Source: Prevotella sp. (GTDB taxonomy: Bacteria > Bacteroidota > Bacteroidia > Bacteroidales > Bacteroidaceae). From it: DNA of 44,794 nt. The notes beneath the pieces are model-generated. The model did no database searches, was not told the DNA's origin, and was given only the letters and a program-made list of their open reading frames with translations. The DNA lies in NCBI GenBank assembly GCA_017483805.1, contig JAFUUL010000069.1, forward strand, positions 1-44,794. The letters run 5' to 3'. The position numbers and the translations under genes are program-made. Below are positions 1-41,065 of this stretch, piece by piece. The first letter of the stretch is position 1; every line of letters starts with the position of its first letter.

Positions 1-431
1 CCATGAACACAAGTTATTGGACACGTCTGCAAGGCACGCCCACAGTGAATACATGGCTTGGGCTTGCTTATGAACGTGTCTGTATGGCCCATGTATCGCA
101 GATAAAGAGAGCCTTGGGTATTGGCAGTGTCGTGACGGAAGCTTATTCATGGCGTAGCAAAGACTCGGAGCATCCTGCTCAAATCGACTTATTGATAGAA
201 CGTGCTGACAAGATGATCAATCTCTGTGAGATTAAGTACAGCGAAACAGAATACAGTCTTTCGCAGGAAGAATATCTGAACATTGGTCGAAGGGTTGAAA
301 GTTTCAGAACTGCCATACAGACACATTACGGCATCGTCCCCACACTCATCACTACCTTTGGCCTGTCAAGGGGAATGTATGCAGACTCCATCCATGCCTC
401 GGTGGTTTTGGATGACCTCTATTCTGAGTGA
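1..431 (+). CDS. ATPase with C-terminal PD-(D/E)XK-like domain, 3' end only
   Basis: Partial: the reading frame is already open at the window edge and the first visible Met (base 3) is probably internal. About 142 residues remain. They resemble the C-terminal part of the Bacteroidetes/archaeal-type ATPases whose AAA domain is followed by a DUF234-like nuclease fold. Nuclease-type residues are visible: a Glu at about 24 (LAYERV), Asp62 in AQIDLLIE and the pair Glu76-x-Lys78 in LCEIKYS, which fits an intact PD-(D/E)XK site. The ATPase domain lies outside the window. Cellular role of the family is not settled; a DNA-directed or defence-like role is only a possibility. A second ATPase of the same broad family, without this nuclease end, lies at 43304-44416. 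Two palindrome arrays follow immediately. Confidence 0.7.
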   Translation, partial: MNTSYWTRLQGTPTVNTWLGLAYERVCMAHVSQIKRALGIGSVVTEAYSWRSKDSEHPAQIDLLIERADKMINLCEIKYSETEYSLSQEEYLNIGRRVESFRTAIQTHYGIVPTLITTFGLSRGMYADSIHASVVLDDLYSE

Positions 432-494: not shown

Positions 495-548
495 GAGTTA
501 ACTCGATTTGTCGTTTGAGTAAACTCGATAGGAGTTTTGAATTAACTC
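495..548. repeat. Palindrome array A, 22-base period, 3 units
   Basis: Three 10-base palindromes or near-palindromes occur at exactly 22-base steps: GAGTTAACTC at 495-504, GAGTAAACTC at 517-526, GAATTAACTC at 539-548. The spacers are only loosely alike. It lies just after the ATPase stop codon in a convergent gap and is followed directly by array B with the same period but another core. Confidence 0.85.
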
Positions 549-564
549 AGGGATTTTTTCGGGG

Positions 565-641
565 TCATTAATGAATTGGACTGATTTCATTAATGAATTG
601 GATTGATTTCATTAATGAATTGGATTGATTTCATTAATGAA
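565..641. repeat. Palindrome array B, 22-base period, 4 units
   Basis: A 22-base unit is repeated three times in full (566-587, 588-609, 610-631; one base differs between the first and the other two) plus a 10-base partial copy at 632-641. The unit contains TCATTAATGA, which in copies 2-4 extends to the perfect 12-base palindrome TTCATTAATGAA. Palindrome centres are at about 569.5, 591.5, 613.5 and 635.5. The array abuts the terminator hairpin at 645-677. Confidence 0.9.
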
Positions 642-703: not shown

Positions 704-3205
704 TCAGAGGTGGATGTTCACATCCATTCCCAACTGGATGGGGTTCGCCTGCTGGGCAAAGTAATGCTGTCCTCCAGCAGCACTGGAGGCGACGGCGAAC
801 GTATTGTAGTGTGTGTTGGTCAGATTGCGGCCCCAAAGGGTGACGATGACAGGACCGAAGTCGTAGTCGGCATGGGCCCCCAGCAGGGCATAGAACTTCT
901 GGGCAAAGGTATTGGCCTCGTCCCACCAGGTCTTACCCTGTCCTGAGACGTTGGCACCGATGGTGAACTTGCCGATGTGATAGTCGGCCATCAGGCTCAT
1001 CGTATGCTTCGGCACGTATGGCACGTAGTTGTCCTTATAAGAAACAAGTGGCGCATAGCCTGTACCATGACTGTTCACGTTCATTGTGTTAGCATCGTAC
1101 TCATCGAACTTCGCATTGGTGAGGCTGTAGGTCAGGCCCCAGTCGAGACGGTTGTCGATGGCACGACCGCGCAAGGTTGCTTCCAGACCGTAGGAGTGGC
1201 TCTTACCGGCATTGGTCATGATACGTCCGTAGTTGGAGATGGGCGACATGATGGAGAGCTGCTGGTTGCGTATCTTCATGTAGTAGAGAGCGAGGTCGAA
1301 GTGCAGACGGCTGTCGAAGAGGTTCAGATGGGTGCCAAGCTCAAAGTTCCACGACTCCTCCGGCTTGTAGGCGATCGTCTCTTCAATATTATCGTAATCT
1401 TGTGTTGTATGCTCCACGTCATAGTCGCCACGCATAGCACTCTGCTGGTTGGCGTTGAGGTCGGTCTGCAGGATCTCAGAGAACATCTGGATGTTGTAGC
1501 CGCCGGCACGGTAGCCTTTCGACACGAGAGCGTAGATATTGCCTAACTGCTCGTCGAAGGTATAGGTCAGGGCAAACTTCGGCAGCAGCTGTGTGTGCGA
1601 CTTCGAGCGGCTGTCCTGCACATGCGACGTAAGGTGATAGGTGGCCTGACGCTCAGCGGTGCCGCCCGTCATATTCATATAGGCCAGGGCATCGTACTGG
1701 ATCTTCGTCCAGTCGTAGTTCAGACGGAGACCAAGGGTGAGCTTCAGCTGGTCGGTAAGCAGCAGGTTGGACTCATGGTAGAGACCAAGGTTGAGCTGCG
1801 GCGTGCGGTAGTTGGAGGGCACAGCCATCTCGGCGCTCATCGAGACACCATCGAGGGCCTTCTGGACAGCAGCCTGGGCAGCAGCCTCAGCCATAGGAGC
1901 GGCCATCTCCTCGCGCATGCCCTGGGCTATCATCTGCTCGAGCATCTGCTGATACATACGCGGATACATCGACTTCTGCATGGCACCACGCATCGCATTG
2001 GTGATAGCTTCGCCGATAGGACCCGTGATGGCATCGCCGAAGAAGACGGGGGCATCGGTGCGGAGCCACTGGTAAGAGCCGAAGAGGCCTGTCGTATGCT
2101 GCCAACGGCCTGTGTCGTGGGAACGCAGCACGAACTCCTGCGTGAGCGCATTCATCTTCTGGCGCTGCTCGAGGCGCAGGTAGTCGGGTGTCATATAGTC
2201 CTGGTCCATCAGCATCTCGTCGTTCAGGAACTGATAGCTGGTGGTGGAGGTGAAGAGCAGCTGCTCCGTCTCGTAGCCGATGGAGACACCCGTATTGAAC
2301 ATATTACGCTTATAGCCGTTCATGATGGTGGTGGCAGGGTCCATCACATCCGTGAATTTCGTAAACGGATCTGAACCTGGGAAGCCTGTGTCATACCAAG
2401 CATGGCCAAATTCCCCATAGCCGAAGCCGTTCTGATTGACATACTGATAATCGGCTGTCCAATCGAACTTCAGCTTCGTCGTAGGCTGGAAGATGAGGCG
2501 CAGCTTACCGCCGGCCTCGTTGCTCTTGTCATTCTTCTCTGAGAAGTTATCATTGTTGATAAAGCCCTTCAGACCGCTGTAGAAACCAGCCACAGAGAAG
2601 GCGAGCTTGTCGCTGGGACGATGATAGTGAGCCACCTCGATATTCGAATAGAGGCCCGTGCCGATGCCCAGACGGATATCCGTACCCTGATAGTTCATCG
2701 GGTTCTTGGAGTAGATACGCACGAGTCCACCCTCGGTGTTCTGACCATAGAGCGTGCCCTGCGGCCCACGCAGGATATCCACACGGTCGAGCATATAGAA
2801 ATGATTATTGAAGGCCGCCTTCGACATCAGGGGGATGTTGTCGTAGTAGATGCCGACAGCGGGACTGTTGACGCGCGAACCTATACCTCTGACATACATC
2901 GAGGAGGTAAGACGCGAACCGTAGGCAGGCATCGTGAAGGCAGGCACGTACTGCGAGAGCTGCGTGAGGTCGCGCACGTTGAGCTGCTGGAGCTGTTCGC
3001 TGCCAAAGACATTACTGCTAACAGGTTGGAGGCGGAGGCGCACAGGCTCCTTGGGCTGTGCTACCACCACCACCTCGTCTAAATCAACAACTTTACTGGT
3101 ATCTGCGATAGCCTCATCCGTGAGGTCATTAAGAGGGGTTGCCAGGCCTGAAAGCTGGCAGCCCAGTGCGAAAAGCACGATCAAATTCTTATTCTTCATA
3201 TACAT
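704..3205 (-). CDS. TonB-dependent outer-membrane receptor with methionine-ladder loop
   Basis: 833 residues, the usual size for a TonB-dependent receptor that takes up ferric chelates, heme, cobalamin or other scarce ligands across the outer membrane using TonB energy. An N-terminal signal peptide is followed by a TonB-box-like DEVVVVAQ (about 43-50). The plug domain (about 55-170) carries the typical VDILRGPQGTLYGQNTEGG motif, and the rest is a beta-barrel ending in an aromatic/hydrophobic strand. There is no carboxypeptidase-like N-terminal domain and no SusD partner, so this is probably not a SusC-type glycan importer. Residues 404-460 are an unusual Ala/Met-rich insert with Met at 405, 409, 413, 417, 421, 425, 430, 434, 438, 456 and 460. 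A promoter lies at 3224-3255. A second start two codons in (base 3199) gives a more typical signal peptide and is equally possible. Substrate cannot be told from the sequence. Confidence 0.92.
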   Translation of the reverse strand: MYMKNKNLIVLFALGCQLSGLATPLNDLTDEAIADTSKVVDLDEVVVVAQPKEPVRLRLQPVSSNVFGSEQLQQLNVRDLTQLSQYVPAFTMPAYGSRLTSSMYVRGIGSRVNSPAVGIYYDNIPLMSKAAFNNHFYMLDRVDILRGPQGTLYGQNTEGGLVRIYSKNPMNYQGTDIRLGIGTGLYSNIEVAHYHRPSDKLAFSVAGFYSGLKGFINNDNFSEKNDKSNEAGGKLRLIFQPTTKLKFDWTADYQYVNQNGFGYGEFGHAWYDTGFPGSDPFTKFTDVMDPATTIMNGYKRNMFNTGVSIGYETEQLLFTSTTSYQFLNDEMLMDQDYMTPDYLRLEQRQKMNALTQEFVLRSHDTGRWQHTTGLFGSYQWLRTDAPVFFGDAITGPIGEAITNAMRGAMQKSMYPRMYQQMLEQMIAQGMREEMAAPMAEAAAQAAVQKALDGVSMSAEMAVPSNYRTPQLNLGLYHESNLLLTDQLKLTLGLRLNYDWTKIQYDALAYMNMTGGTAERQATYHLTSHVQDSRSKSHTQLLPKFALTYTFDEQLGNIYALVSKGYRAGGYNIQMFSEILQTDLNANQQSAMRGDYDVEHTTQDYDNIEETIAYKPEESWNFELGTHLNLFDSRLHFDLALYYMKIRNQQLSIMSPISNYGRIMTNAGKSHSYGLEATLRGRAIDNRLDWGLTYSLTNAKFDEYDANTMNVNSHGTGYAPLVSYKDNYVPYVPKHTMSLMADYHIGKFTIGANVSGQGKTWWDEANTFAQKFYALLGAHADYDFGPVIVTLWGRNLTNTHYNTFAVASSAAGGQHYFAQQANPIQLGMDVNIHL

Positions 3206-3391: not shown

Positions 3392-5896
3392 ATGACATTA
3401 GACAAATTTACAATCAAGGCTCAGGAAGCCGTGCAGCAGGCCGTGAACACGGCACAGCTGAGCGGGCAGCAGGTAATAGAGCCTGTGCATATCCTGAAAG
3501 GGGTGATGGAGAAGGCGAAGGACGTCGTGAACTTCATCTTCCAGAAACTCGGCGTGAATACACAGCAGATTGACCTGCTGGTGTCGCAGGAGATTCAGCA
3601 TCTGCCAAGGGTACAAGGCGGACAGCCATATCTCTCTAACGAAAGTAATAATGTACTCGTGCGCGCACAAGAGACGGCCCAGAAGATGGGTGACGAGTTT
3701 GTCAGCGTGGAACCGATCCTGCTGGCGCTGCTGCAAGTGAACTCAACGGCAGCGCGCATCCTGAAGGACGCAGGCTGCACAGAGAAGGAAATGCTGAAGG
3801 CCATCCAGGAACTGCGCCAGGGGCAGAAGGTGCAAAGCCAGAGTGCCGACGACAACTACCAGAGTCTGGAGAAGTTCGCCAAGAACCTCGTGGATCTGGC
3901 GCGTCAGGGTAAGCTCGACCCGGTCATCGGCCGTGATGACGAGATACGCCGCGTGTTGCAGATCCTGTCGCGACGCACGAAGAACAATCCTATCCTGATA
4001 GGTGAGCCTGGTACGGGTAAGACGGCCATCGTCGAAGGACTGGCACAACGTATCATGCGCGGTGACGTTCCTGAGAACCTGAAAGACAAACAGCTCTACT
4101 CACTCGACATGGGTGCGCTGGTGGCTGGTGCCAAGTATAAGGGCGAGTTTGAGGAGCGACTGAAGAGCGTCATCAACGAGGTGACCGCCGCCGAGGGGCG
4201 CATCATCCTCTTCATCGACGAGATACACACCCTCGTGGGTGCCGGCAAGGGCGAGGGGGCTATGGATGCCGCCAACATTCTGAAGCCCGCACTGGCACGC
4301 GGCGAACTGCGCAGCATTGGTGCCACGACGCTCAACGAATACCAGAAGTACTTCGAGAAGGACAAGGCACTGGAGCGCCGCTTCCAGACCGTGATGGTCG
4401 ACGAGCCTGACGAACTGTCGGCCATCTCCATTCTGCGCGGCCTGAAGGAGCGCTACGAGAACCACCACAAGGTGCGCATACAGGACGATGCCTGCATAGC
4501 CGCCGTCAGGCTCTCAGAGCGCTACATCACCGAGCGATTCCTGCCCGACAAGGCCATCGACCTGATGGACGAGGCTGCCGCCAAACTGCGCATGGAGCGC
4601 GACTCGGTGCCTGAGGAACTGGACGAGATCACCCGCAAGCGGGCACAACTGGAGATAGAGCGGGAAGCCATCAAGCGCGAAGGCGACGAACCTAAGATTG
4701 CCCAGTTGGACAAGGAGATAGCCGAACTGAAGGAGCAGGAGACGCAGTTCCGTGCCAAGTGGGAGGGCGAAAGACAACTGGTGAACCAGATACAGCAGGA
4801 CAAGCAGCAGATGGAGACGCTGAAATATGAAGCCGAGAGGGCCGAGCGCGAGGGCAACTACGGCCGCGTGGCCGAGATACGCTACGGCAAGATGAAGGAA
4901 CTGGAGGCCCACATCGCCCAGGTGCAGCAGACGCTCAACACAAACAATGCCAGCAAACTTGTGCGCGAGGAGGTCACCGCCGACGACATAGCCGAGGTGG
5001 TCAGCCGCTGGACGGGCATACCCGTCACCCGCATGATGCAGAGCGAACGCGAAAAACTGCTCCACCTCGAGGAGGAACTGCACCGCCGCGTCGTAGGCCA
5101 GCAGGAGGCCATCACGGCCGTCAGCGACGCCGTCAGAAGGAGTCGCGCCGGACTGCAAGACCCCAAGCGCCCCATCGCCTCGTTCATCTTCCTGGGCACC
5201 ACGGGCGTCGGCAAGACGGAACTGGCAAAGACGCTGGCCGAATACCTCTTCAACGACGAGACGATGATGACCCGCATCGACATGTCGGAGTATCAGGAGA
5301 AGCACACCGTCAGCCGACTCATCGGCGCACCTCCGGGCTACGTGGGCTACGACGAGGGCGGACAACTGACCGAGGCCGTGCGCCGCAAGCCCTACTCCGT
5401 GGTGCTGTTCGACGAGATTGAGAAGGCCCACCCCGACGTCTTCAACATCCTCTTGCAGGTGCTCGACGATGGCCGCCTGACCGACAATAAGGGCCGCACC
5501 GCCGACTTCAAGAACACCATCATCATCATGACCTCGAACGCCACCCGCGAGCAACTGCGCCAGACCATGCGCCCCGAGTTCCTCAACCGCATCGACGAGG
5601 TGATCACCTTCCAGCCGCTCTCGAAGGAGGAGATAGCCCAGGTGGTGCGCCTGCAACTGGAGCGCGTGAAAGAGATGCTCGCCCCGCAGGGCTTCACGCT
5701 CGAGGTCACCCCTCAGGCCGTCGACTTCCTGGCCCAGGAGGGCTACGATCCCGACTTCGGTGCCCGCCCCGTGAAGCGTGCCATCCAGCAGCACCTGCTC
5801 AACGACCTGTCGAAGCGCCTGCTGGCCAACCAGGTGACGCCCGAAAAGCCTATCATCGTCGACTCCTTCGGCGACTCACTGGTGTTCCGCAACTAA
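3392..5896 (+). CDS. clpB: ClpB disaggregase (Hsp104 family)
   Basis: 834 residues, close to the usual 850-870. ClpB is a hexameric cytosolic AAA+ chaperone that, with DnaK, pulls polypeptides out of aggregates after heat or other stress. Visible in order: N-terminal Clp repeat domain (1-145); first AAA+ domain with Walker A GEPGTGKT (204-211) and Walker B IILFIDE (271-277); a charged coiled-coil middle domain (about 395-525) that marks ClpB rather than ClpA/ClpC; second AAA+ domain with Walker A GTTGVGKT (602-609) and Walker B VVLFDE (from 670); C-terminal D2-small domain. The N-terminal [14 protein letters not shown] is the family-typical start. It stands alone, divergent from the TonB-dependent receptor, and ends at a strong terminator. 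A heat-shock type control is expected but only a weak sigma-54-like box is seen. Confidence 0.97.
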
Positions 5897-18246: not shown

Positions 18247-18307
18247 GTTTGGAGCCTCCATTCACACCGTTTGGAGGCTCCATTCACCTCGTTTGGAGGC
18301 TCCAAAC
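18247..18307. repeat. Palindrome array C, 22-base period, 3 units
   Basis: Units begin at 18247, 18269 and 18291. Each starts GTTTGGAG[C/G]CTCCA; the last is the complete 17-base palindrome GTTTGGAGGCTCCAAAC. The array lies just upstream of the -33 box of promoter repeat copy 2. Its core is shared with array D at 38333-38411. Confidence 0.88.
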
Positions 18308-38332: not shown

Positions 38333-38411
38333 GTTTGAAGCCTCCAAACAGGTGGTTTGAAGCCTCCAAACCAACCGTTTGAAGGCTCCAAACTCATCGT
38401 TTGCAGCATCC
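38333..38411. repeat. Palindrome array D, 22-base period, 4 units
   Basis: Units begin at 38333, 38355, 38377 and 38399. The first three carry GTTTGAAGCCTCCAAAC or the variant with GGC; the fourth is degenerate (GTTTGCAGCATCC). Same core family as array C, 20 kb away. It lies between the acetyltransferase gene and the clpS promoter, about 60 bases upstream of the -7 box. Confidence 0.88.
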
Positions 38412-38811: not shown

Positions 38812-41049
38812 ATGGCAGAGATAAGACAAACTGAACGAGCAGCCAGAATCCTGCACCTGGCGATGGAATACTGTCAGAAGGACAGGCATGAGTTCGTCAC
38901 GCCCGAACATCTGCTGATGGCCATGCTGAGCGATGACACTTTTGCACGCGTGCTGAACATTTTCTATAGGCCCGACACGCTGGCAAACCGACTGTTCCAA
39001 CAAATGCTGGACTCAGAGACCATTCCCGCAGGGCAGGACTACGAGCCCGAGCCATCGGCCCAACTCGGGCAGGTGATTGAGATTGCCTGTCAGCAGGTGG
39101 TGAACAGCAGTGCCACAGACCTGGACATACCTCATCTGGTGATGGGCATCCTGCAGTTGAAAGAGTCGTGGGCCTGCTATCTACTGAAGGACGCCGTGAT
39201 CAACAAGGAGAGCAACTTTATGAGCCAACTCATCAGTGCCTACGAATTTGAGGATCACTTGAGAGAAGACACGGGTACTCAGGAGCAGGATGAAGCATGG
39301 AAGCAACTGGTCACCTGCATGAACGACCTCTACCAGAAGCACAACCCGCTCATAGGGCGGGAGCAGGAACTGCAGCGCACCATTCAGGTGCTTTGCCGCC
39401 GCGACAAGAACAATCCGCTGCATGTGGGCGAGCCGGGCGTGGGCAAGACGGCCCTGGTATGGGGACTGGCCAGGATGATTGAGGAAGGACGGGTGCCGGA
39501 ACGGTTGAAGGGCAGCCGCATCTATCAATTAGACATGGGTACGCTGCTGGCCGGCACGCAGTATCGCGGCGACTTCGAGAACCGCATCAAGATGATCATG
39601 GACGGCGTGCAGGCGGAAAGTACCAATAACATTGTGTACATCGACGAGATACACACGCTGGTGGGAGCCGGTGCCACAGGCGAGGGTGCGATGGATGCCT
39701 CGAACATGCTGAAGCCCTATCTGGAGTCGGGCAACATCCGCTTCATCGGTTCCACGACCTACGAGGAGTACAACCGCCACTTCGCTCGTTCGAAGGGCAT
39801 GATTCGCCGTTTCCAGCAGATAGACATCGCTGAGCCGTCCATCGACGAGGCGAAGCACATCCTGCGGCAGTTACTGCCCCGTTATGAGGAGTTCCATAAG
39901 GTGAAGTATGAGGATGAAGCCATCGACTTTGCCGTAGAGGCCAGTGCCAAGTATGTGAACGACCGCTTCCTGCCCGACAAGGCCATCGACCTGATTGATG
40001 AAGCGGGAGCGAGCGCTGAAGTAAAAGGGCAGACGGAAGAAGTAAGAGTGACCAAGGCAGACATTGCAGACGTATTGGCCAAGACTTGCAAGGTGGATGC
40101 GCTGGCTGTTGCCGAGGATGAAGACTACCAGCAGTTGGAGACGCTGGCACCAAGGATGCTCTCGCAGATCTACGGACAGGACGAAGCCATCCGCCAGGTG
40201 GTGGAAGCGGTACAGATGTCGCGGGCAGGACTGCTCGATGACAACAAGCCGCTGGCATCGCTGCTCTTCGTCGGTCCTACGGGTGTGGGCAAGACGGAGG
40301 TGGCCAAGGTGCTGGCCAAGGAACTGGGCATCGAACTGATACGCTTCGACATGAGCGAATACACCGAGAAGCACACCGTTGCCAAACTGATTGGCTCGCC
40401 TGCGGGCTATGTGGGCTATGAGGACGGCGGTCTGCTGACGGATGCCATCCGCAAGGCACCCAACGCCGTGCTACTGCTCGACGAGATAGAAAAGGCGCAC
40501 CAGGACATCTACAATATCCTGCTGCAGGTGATGGACTATGCCCGTCTGACGGACAACAAGGGGCGCAAGGCCGACTTCCGCAACGTGGTGCTCATCATGA
40601 CCTCGAATGCCGGAGCGCAGTTTGCGTCACAGAGCATCGGTTTCAACCACAGCGTCAGTCGCGGCGAGGCGATGATGAAGCAGGTAAAGAAGACCTTCAA
40701 GCCGGAATTTCTGAACCGACTGTCGGGAGCCGTCGTGTTCCACGACATGGATCGCGAGATGGCCACACTGATACTGAAGAAGAAACTGCGCGAACTGGAG
40801 GTGAAACTCGAGGCCAAGCAGGTGAAGTTGACGCTCACCGAGGAGGCCTTCGACCATCTGCTGAAGGAGGGCTTTACGCCAGAATATGGTGCCCGCGAGA
40901 TGGACCGTGTCATCGCCCAGCAACTGAAGCCGCTGCTGATGCGCGAGATTCTGTTTGGCAGTTTGAAGCAGGGCGGAGATGTCAATATCGGATTAGAGAA
41001 TTCTAGACTCTTAATTCTTAATCGCGAAGCGACAACTCTTAACTCTTAA
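38812..41049 (+). CDS. clpA: ClpA, ATP-dependent unfoldase of the ClpAP protease
   Basis: 745 residues, matching ClpA (about 750) and lacking the middle coiled coil of ClpB. N-domain (1 to about 145) for ClpS binding; AAA+ domain 1 with GEPGVGKT (206-213) and VYIDEIHT; AAA+ domain 2 with GPTGVGKT (488-495) and LLLDEIEKA; an IGF tripeptide in FASQSIGFNH that would dock ClpP like the IGL loop of E. coli. The last 15 or so residues (SRLLILNREATTLNS) are encoded by a heptamer repeat array and look non-conserved. Second gene of clpS-clpA-aat; clpP is not in the window. Confidence 0.96.
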   Translation: MAEIRQTERAARILHLAMEYCQKDRHEFVTPEHLLMAMLSDDTFARVLNIFYRPDTLANRLFQQMLDSETIPAGQDYEPEPSAQLGQVIEIACQQVVNSSATDLDIPHLVMGILQLKESWACYLLKDAVINKESNFMSQLISAYEFEDHLREDTGTQEQDEAWKQLVTCMNDLYQKHNPLIGREQELQRTIQVLCRRDKNNPLHVGEPGVGKTALVWGLARMIEEGRVPERLKGSRIYQLDMGTLLAGTQYRGDFENRIKMIMDGVQAESTNNIVYIDEIHTLVGAGATGEGAMDASNMLKPYLESGNIRFIGSTTYEEYNRHFARSKGMIRRFQQIDIAEPSIDEAKHILRQLLPRYEEFHKVKYEDEAIDFAVEASAKYVNDRFLPDKAIDLIDEAGASAEVKGQTEEVRVTKADIADVLAKTCKVDALAVAEDEDYQQLETLAPRMLSQIYGQDEAIRQVVEAVQMSRAGLLDDNKPLASLLFVGPTGVGKTEVAKVLAKELGIELIRFDMSEYTEKHTVAKLIGSPAGYVGYEDGGLLTDAIRKAPNAVLLLDEIEKAHQDIYNILLQVMDYARLTDNKGRKADFRNVVLIMTSNAGAQFASQSIGFNHSVSRGEAMMKQVKKTFKPEFLNRLSGAVVFHDMDREMATLILKKKLRELEVKLEAKQVKLTLTEEAFDHLLKEGFTPEYGAREMDRVIAQQLKPLLMREILFGSLKQGGDVNIGLENSRLLILNREATTLNS

Positions 41050-41065
41050 TTCTTAACTCTTAACT
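41006..41065 (+). repeat. Heptamer repeats across the clpA stop codon
   Basis: Seven-base units of the type AACTCTT or AATTCTT: two at 41006-41019, a small CGC-GAA-GCG spacer, then four in a row at 41034-41061 plus a partial one. The clpA stop codon (41047-41049) is inside the array. Because 7 is not a multiple of 3, a change in copy number would shift the clpA tail and the spacing to aat. Confidence 0.8.

Follow-up and report, generated by a model that had tools for sequence, protein, structure and literature searches.

Intergenic ladders of differing sequence with a nearly fixed 22-base pitch in a Prevotella-type genus

Why should two adjacent palindrome arrays with different cores step by the same 22 bases? 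This question is raised by a contig of a Prevotella sp. that was analysed over its whole length of 44,794 nucleotides (the window; contig C27 of the source genome G000, an assembly of 3.63 Mb with 199 contigs, a completeness of 91.7% and a contamination of 7.2%). Arrays A and B lie within the 272 bases separating two convergent genes: a short open reading frame to the left of A (positions 3–431, plus strand), with sub-threshold similarity to DUF234/DUF4143, and a TonB-dependent receptor gene to the right of B (704–3205, minus strand). Array A (495–548) has three modules with core GAGTTAACTC at a pitch of 22, the units being GAGTTAACTC (495–504), GAGTAAACTC (517–526) and GAATTAACTC (539–548), centred at 499.5, 521.5 and 543.5. 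It is a decayed copy, with substitutions in units 2 and 3, and only unit 1 is a perfect palindrome; its left flank, AAAAATC (485–491), is complementary to its right flank, GATTTTT (552–558). Array B (565–641) has four modules with core TCATTAATGA at the same pitch (centres 569.5, 591.5, 613.5 and 635.5), with almost identical spacers, and is adjoined by a 33-base hairpin (645–677), paired in the minimum-energy fold, lying between B and the stop of the TonB receptor. The last A centre and the first B centre are 26 bases apart, not 22. The unit positions confirm the 22-base step at all seven centres given in a first-pass annotation of this DNA, which described the two cores as different and unrelated; they are indeed different, but “unrelated” is too strong, as both have a central TTAA. 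Two further arrays with yet another core were correctly said to step by 22: array C (18247–18307) comprises three modules of a family termed F1 (GTTTGRAGSCTYCAAAC type) with 5-nt spacers, and array D (38333–38411), between a hexapeptide acetyltransferase gene and clpS, comprises three F1 modules and a decayed fourth. The window contains two triples of 10-base palindromes at a common step of 15–40, both within B, whereas none of ten first-order Markov versions of it contained such a triple; the arrays are, thus, not a product of chance. Elsewhere in the window, the heptamer AACTCTT is present in 4.6 copies (41034–41065) at the end of an AAA gene (38812–41049).

Period 22 recurs in the genus with many cores, which makes the pattern wider than the first-pass annotation could tell. 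Tandem Repeats Finder was applied to 1.39 Mb from ten congeneric genomes (score ≥60, period 12–60, non-overlapping arrays), and 42 of the 122 tandem arrays had a period of 22; these fell into 28 unit-sequence clusters and eight genomes, with the reservations that arrays within one genome are not independent of each other and that the two genomes without period-22 arrays were sampled for merely 24 and 26 kb. The relatives were picked by completeness, not for arrays, and were read in stretches; the window, chosen for its arrays, was included and contributed 3 of the 42 (B, C and D). Other periods were less common (20, no arrays; 21, 14; 23, two; 24, seven; 44, seven), so the first-pass annotation was right on the point on which it had made its proposal depend. 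Some of the arrays with periods divisible by three may be coding; within periods 19, 20, 22, 23, 25 and 26, period 22 accounts for 42 of 45 arrays. A fixed period with many cores is not what slippage of one ancestor would give, and this argument was borne out. Functionless tandem duplication and slippage, with 22 bp favoured by some replication or repair step, is an unlikely account of the ladders (as these arrays are called here): tandem repeats of 22 and 23 nt, mentioned for P. gingivalis W83 in one report (PMC4596501), are consistent with it, but the scarcity of periods 20 and 23 beside 22 argues against it. Pairs of like palindromes, whatever the core, were spaced by 22 (six pairs), 44 (two), 14 (one) and 54 (one) in 239 kb, consisting of the window and 20 stretches taken before any hit was used (two of them all N); in an enlarged set of 550 kb, for which the added stretches were partly selected for F1 hits, the spacings were 22 (24 pairs), 44 (nine) and 14, 48, 54 and 66 (one each). 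Palindromy as the feature common to these arrays is not supported, given that only 10 of the 42 consensus units of period 22 reach significance for it (p≤0.05; period 44, 4/7; other periods, 8/73). In thin controls, period 22 made up 2 of 11 arrays from other families of the class (222 kb, 16 genomes) and 2 of 5 from one sister genus (80 kb), and 50 kb of E. coli contained no arrays.

The F1 module consists of a 17-base unit and a 5-base spacer. A genome-wide search of G000 for TTTGRAGSCTYCAAA with at most one mismatch yielded 80 sites, and a reversed control yielded none. The gap in tandem F1 pairs was 7 in 40 of 40 cases, with gaps of 5–9 allowed (29 pairs in G000 and 11 in G142), and no tandem F1 was found in 148 other congeners; among named genomes, the exact pattern was present in four uncultured Prevotella bins and one Xylanibacter brevis scaffold. 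All 143 of 143 F1 units were in phase, partly by construction, because the loci had been fetched with a fixed gap. In 165 units, 14 of the 17 columns are conserved at 84–99%, and spacers agree at 34% of positions between arrays and 41% within them; spacers are, thus, little more alike within arrays than between, which speaks against slippage, and recent slippage was rejected as a full account. The commonest unit lacks full symmetry, with G.T or A.C at one pair (107/165 units). The strand of the G.T form relative to transcription is unbiased (six versus seven arrays), and on this lack of preference an RNA-level role of F1 was rejected. Known structured RNAs were also discarded, the only matches at Rfam gathering score in 11 sources being RNase P and three tRNAs, none on arrays. 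Of the 32 F1 arrays flanked by called genes, 17 were in co-directional, nine in convergent and six in divergent contexts, and some F1 arrays fell inside called genes, according to a crude caller that missed the open reading frame at 3–431 and located array C's left-hand neighbour at a distance of 12 kb. Hairpin elements of about 100–150 bp, in several families, adjoin F1 arrays on one side (L050, L057, L034, L120/L137, L145; L128, L129, L140, L151, L153; L058, L132, L133, L134). In 14 of 16 pairs from hairpin classes ii and iii, the hairpin flank was more similar than the array, so the hairpins may insert next to pre-existing F1 arrays, which may be preferred insertion sites for these elements. 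An F1 array is also found at the 3' end of a gene with the ending ...KARKIDIADLE (L051, 1236–2105 and 2078–2138; also L142, L122 and L151), the neighbours of which we take to be an ATPase, a small MKxYY protein, an HU-like protein and an amidase-like reading frame.

Sixteen of 398 congeners carry exact tandem copies of core A, G264 with 52 pairs and G032 with 50; array A in the window has decayed beyond a match to this pattern. The gap is 12 at each place among the matches listed (6–18 allowed). The 23 A arrays read in detail have common end signatures and a degenerate spacer pattern (approximately RAWYRATYRWWY), and 25 of their 46 ends have a T4/A4 tract no more than 12 nt away. Such tracts on both sides would suit bidirectional transcription terminators, in which the outer units pair, as would the A gene contexts (of the 16 flanked by called genes, seven convergent, six co-directional and three divergent, from the same crude caller) and the array of G294, the sequence of which can be read as a 12-nt loop on a stem of about 14 pairs, with T5. 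However, pairing of the outer bases of A was not above that of re-paired controls (P 0.10 for 4 pairs, 0.58–0.71 for 6–10), T4 was found at only 2 of 94 F1 ends, 6 of 32 F1 contexts are divergent, and a terminator does not need a 22-bp pitch. Termination is, therefore, rejected as a general explanation, and seems improbable as the basis of the ladders, even more so than slippage. Exact tandem B was found only in the window and G073 among 150 genomes, with a gap of 12 in 5 of 5 pairs (10–14 allowed). In G073, three B units precede three A units, the last B centre and the first A centre being 21 bases apart, and the surrounding reading frames and spacers differ from those of the window; 11 of 12 positions in the B spacers of G073 agree, by eye, with the spacer pattern of A. 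Of 398 genomes, G073 alone gave the exact B-then-A pattern. Another locus of the source genome, L013 (G000:C11), has two ladders of period 22 that differ from each other and stand about 80 bases apart (5004–5064 and 5147–5247), first with GTTTTAC half-sites and then of the TGTCAACGAAGCGGCAGGAATG type, resembling A and B in the window.

One convergent gene pair was looked for in 398 genomes, of which 378 had some match; 30 loci were aligned, five of them spanning both genes. Three A units are present at the junction in G103 and two in G294, with the same first spacer, whereas the sites in G326 and G090 are empty. In G031, the junction holds a different ladder, P-X-X-P, where P is GTAAAACAANTTGTTTTAC and X contains TTAAAGGCA, on a 22-base grid. 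At this single junction, ladders are, thus, present, absent or different by exactly one module, and the pitch is retained without the sequence; copy number differs here between species, at an orthologous site. The one-unit difference between G103 and G294 is compatible with slippage, as are the almost identical spacers of B in the window, but one core at many dispersed loci and an A and B pair in two species cannot arise locally. Cores at many loci, together with a junction holding three units, two, none or a different ladder, identify these arrays as dispersed intergenic elements that are gained and lost. A and B together make up one composite copy of the small dispersed elements common in this Prevotella-type genus, of which C and D are further copies, in keeping with the small repeat family envisaged at the outset; each ladder has two to five modules of a lineage-specific core at a pitch nearly fixed at 22 bp, and several families coexist per genome, some at dozens of loci.

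Other genomes have ladders with other cores (CCTTAAGG in G042, AACAAAGTTAATAACTTTGTT in G028 and GGGTAATNNNATTACCC in G024), and the period, although predominantly 22, is not strictly fixed as had been claimed: ladders of G127 have a period of 21, and 9 of 33 steps in the G024 family are of 25 bases. The 21-base ladders lie between two conserved short hairpins, in three copies (L080 1411–1495 and 18433–18512; L081 19593–19661). In the G024 ladder (L196–L210, L099), the 25-base step recurs at one end and the flanks are similar; 25 core sites are scattered over the chromosome, and seven copies share an ordered pattern of 22- and 25-base steps. Common flanks and shared step order point to block copying, as do the ordered spacer series that several F1 arrays have, by eye, in common. 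A small mobile repeat, for which an enzyme would copy or stitch modules of about 22 bp, impose the period and spread the ladders while the core drifts by lineage, would account for this, for the empty sites, for the patchiness of core A (tandem pairs per genome ranging from 0 to 52 among 398 genomes) and for the period of 22 in non-palindromic arrays. Against it, neither a clear target duplication nor an enzyme was found in the single empty-site comparison, and the tandem F1, A and B patterns had no exact matches in viral_contigs, on which ground a phage origin was also rejected. The Y1 transposase PF01797 was matched in seven of nine genomes, and not in G003 and G024, which are rich in ladders (10 and 4 period-22 arrays in the sampled parts); this counts against the copying enzyme, and RAYT-driven REP was rejected on it as a general cause. 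Such period-setting machinery is possible, if doubtful, and nearly as likely as the reading preferred below, both having been offered as candidates in the first-pass annotation.

Twenty-two bases make about two helical turns. Palindromic half-sites spaced by two turns, conserved columns with variable spacers and strand neutrality in F1 point to double-stranded DNA, most simply to side-by-side protein dimers. Each module would dock one dimer of a putative DNA-binding protein, and the pitch would be retained because neighbouring dimers would pack along the same helical face; the core would evolve along with the protein, the spacer would be free (F1) or loosely constrained (A), and modules would be gained or lost via recombination or slippage between neighbours. 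Consistent with docking, the pitch is kept across cores, clusters and genomes, the gap is fixed in F1, B and the listed matches of A though the searches let it vary, B adjoins A in two species amid other reading frames and spacers, and the G031 ladder keeps to the grid although P and X differ. Against docking, 32 of the 42 period-22 consensus units lack significant palindromy, the mixed F1 gene context gives no regulon pattern (by the crude caller), the asymmetric commonest F1 unit is odd for a homodimer site, exceptions to 22 exist, and no DNA-binding protein was found for the ladders. As the reason for 22, we tentatively favour docking modules over copying machinery, slippage and terminators, and the whole explanation, dispersed ladders with docked dimers, has somewhat less than even chances. 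The 22-base pitch in ladders of differing sequence suggests that one process reads or builds them. It is conceivable, although on balance doubtful, that intergenic ladders are pitch-coded genus-wide, with machinery that recognises or builds the 22-bp spacing and a core that serves as an interchangeable and quickly evolving tag, several being kept per lineage.

Sequence is the usual basis for grouping dispersed intergenic repeats, whereas the ladders share one geometry across sequences and species; if the pitch-coded reading is true, they would form a repeat class defined by geometry, unlike the known classes. REP and REPIN sequences are dispersed extragenic palindromes that are lineage-specific; F1, with its many palindromic extragenic copies in G000, is similar, but the ladders have a fixed 22-bp tandem pitch. 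Iterons and plasmid centromere repeats are tandem protein-docking repeats of about two helical turns, typically at one locus beside the gene for their own protein, whereas ladders occupy dozens of dispersed loci. CRISPR arrays were ruled out by spacers of 5 nt (F1) or 12 nt (A and B) that recur between arrays rather than being long and unique. The nearest known kinds, from the sections of the sources available, are PINSR and BrickBuilt, neither of which is described there with a pitch common to different repeats. PINSR is a 188-bp intergenic, lineage-specific sequence without inverted ends or coding sequence, with 177 copies in one P. intermedia strain and 184 in another (2015, PMC4755523). 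Ladders are also multi-copy and lineage-restricted; some F1 arrays lie in called genes (crude caller) and array ends are themselves palindromes, and a 22-bp inner pitch goes unmentioned in the PINSR description. BrickBuilt of Porphyromonas gingivalis, according to the portion of the article at hand, is a MITE with a minisatellite (Klein et al., 2015, PMC4596501), and resembles the ladders in having tandem repeats of similar length at several loci of a Bacteroidales genome; there the repeats, of a single family, belong to a transposable element that has inverted ends, whereas ladders have many cores and no such ends were found, with no clear duplication at one empty site and with 100–150-bp hairpins on one side of some F1 arrays. 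Among the matches listed in the open-licence PMC literature, no description of a 22-bp pitch common to different repeats was found, and the available excerpt of PMC5771137 contains nothing on such a pitch. As differing sequences share one geometry, even at one junction, the question of what sets the period becomes directly testable, and the ladders offer a handle on a DNA-binding or repeat-copying activity in abundant gut bacteria. Longer units are also found in the source genome, in which L047 (G000:C31, 2520–2725) consists of five direct repeats of 41 bases that are 96% alike.
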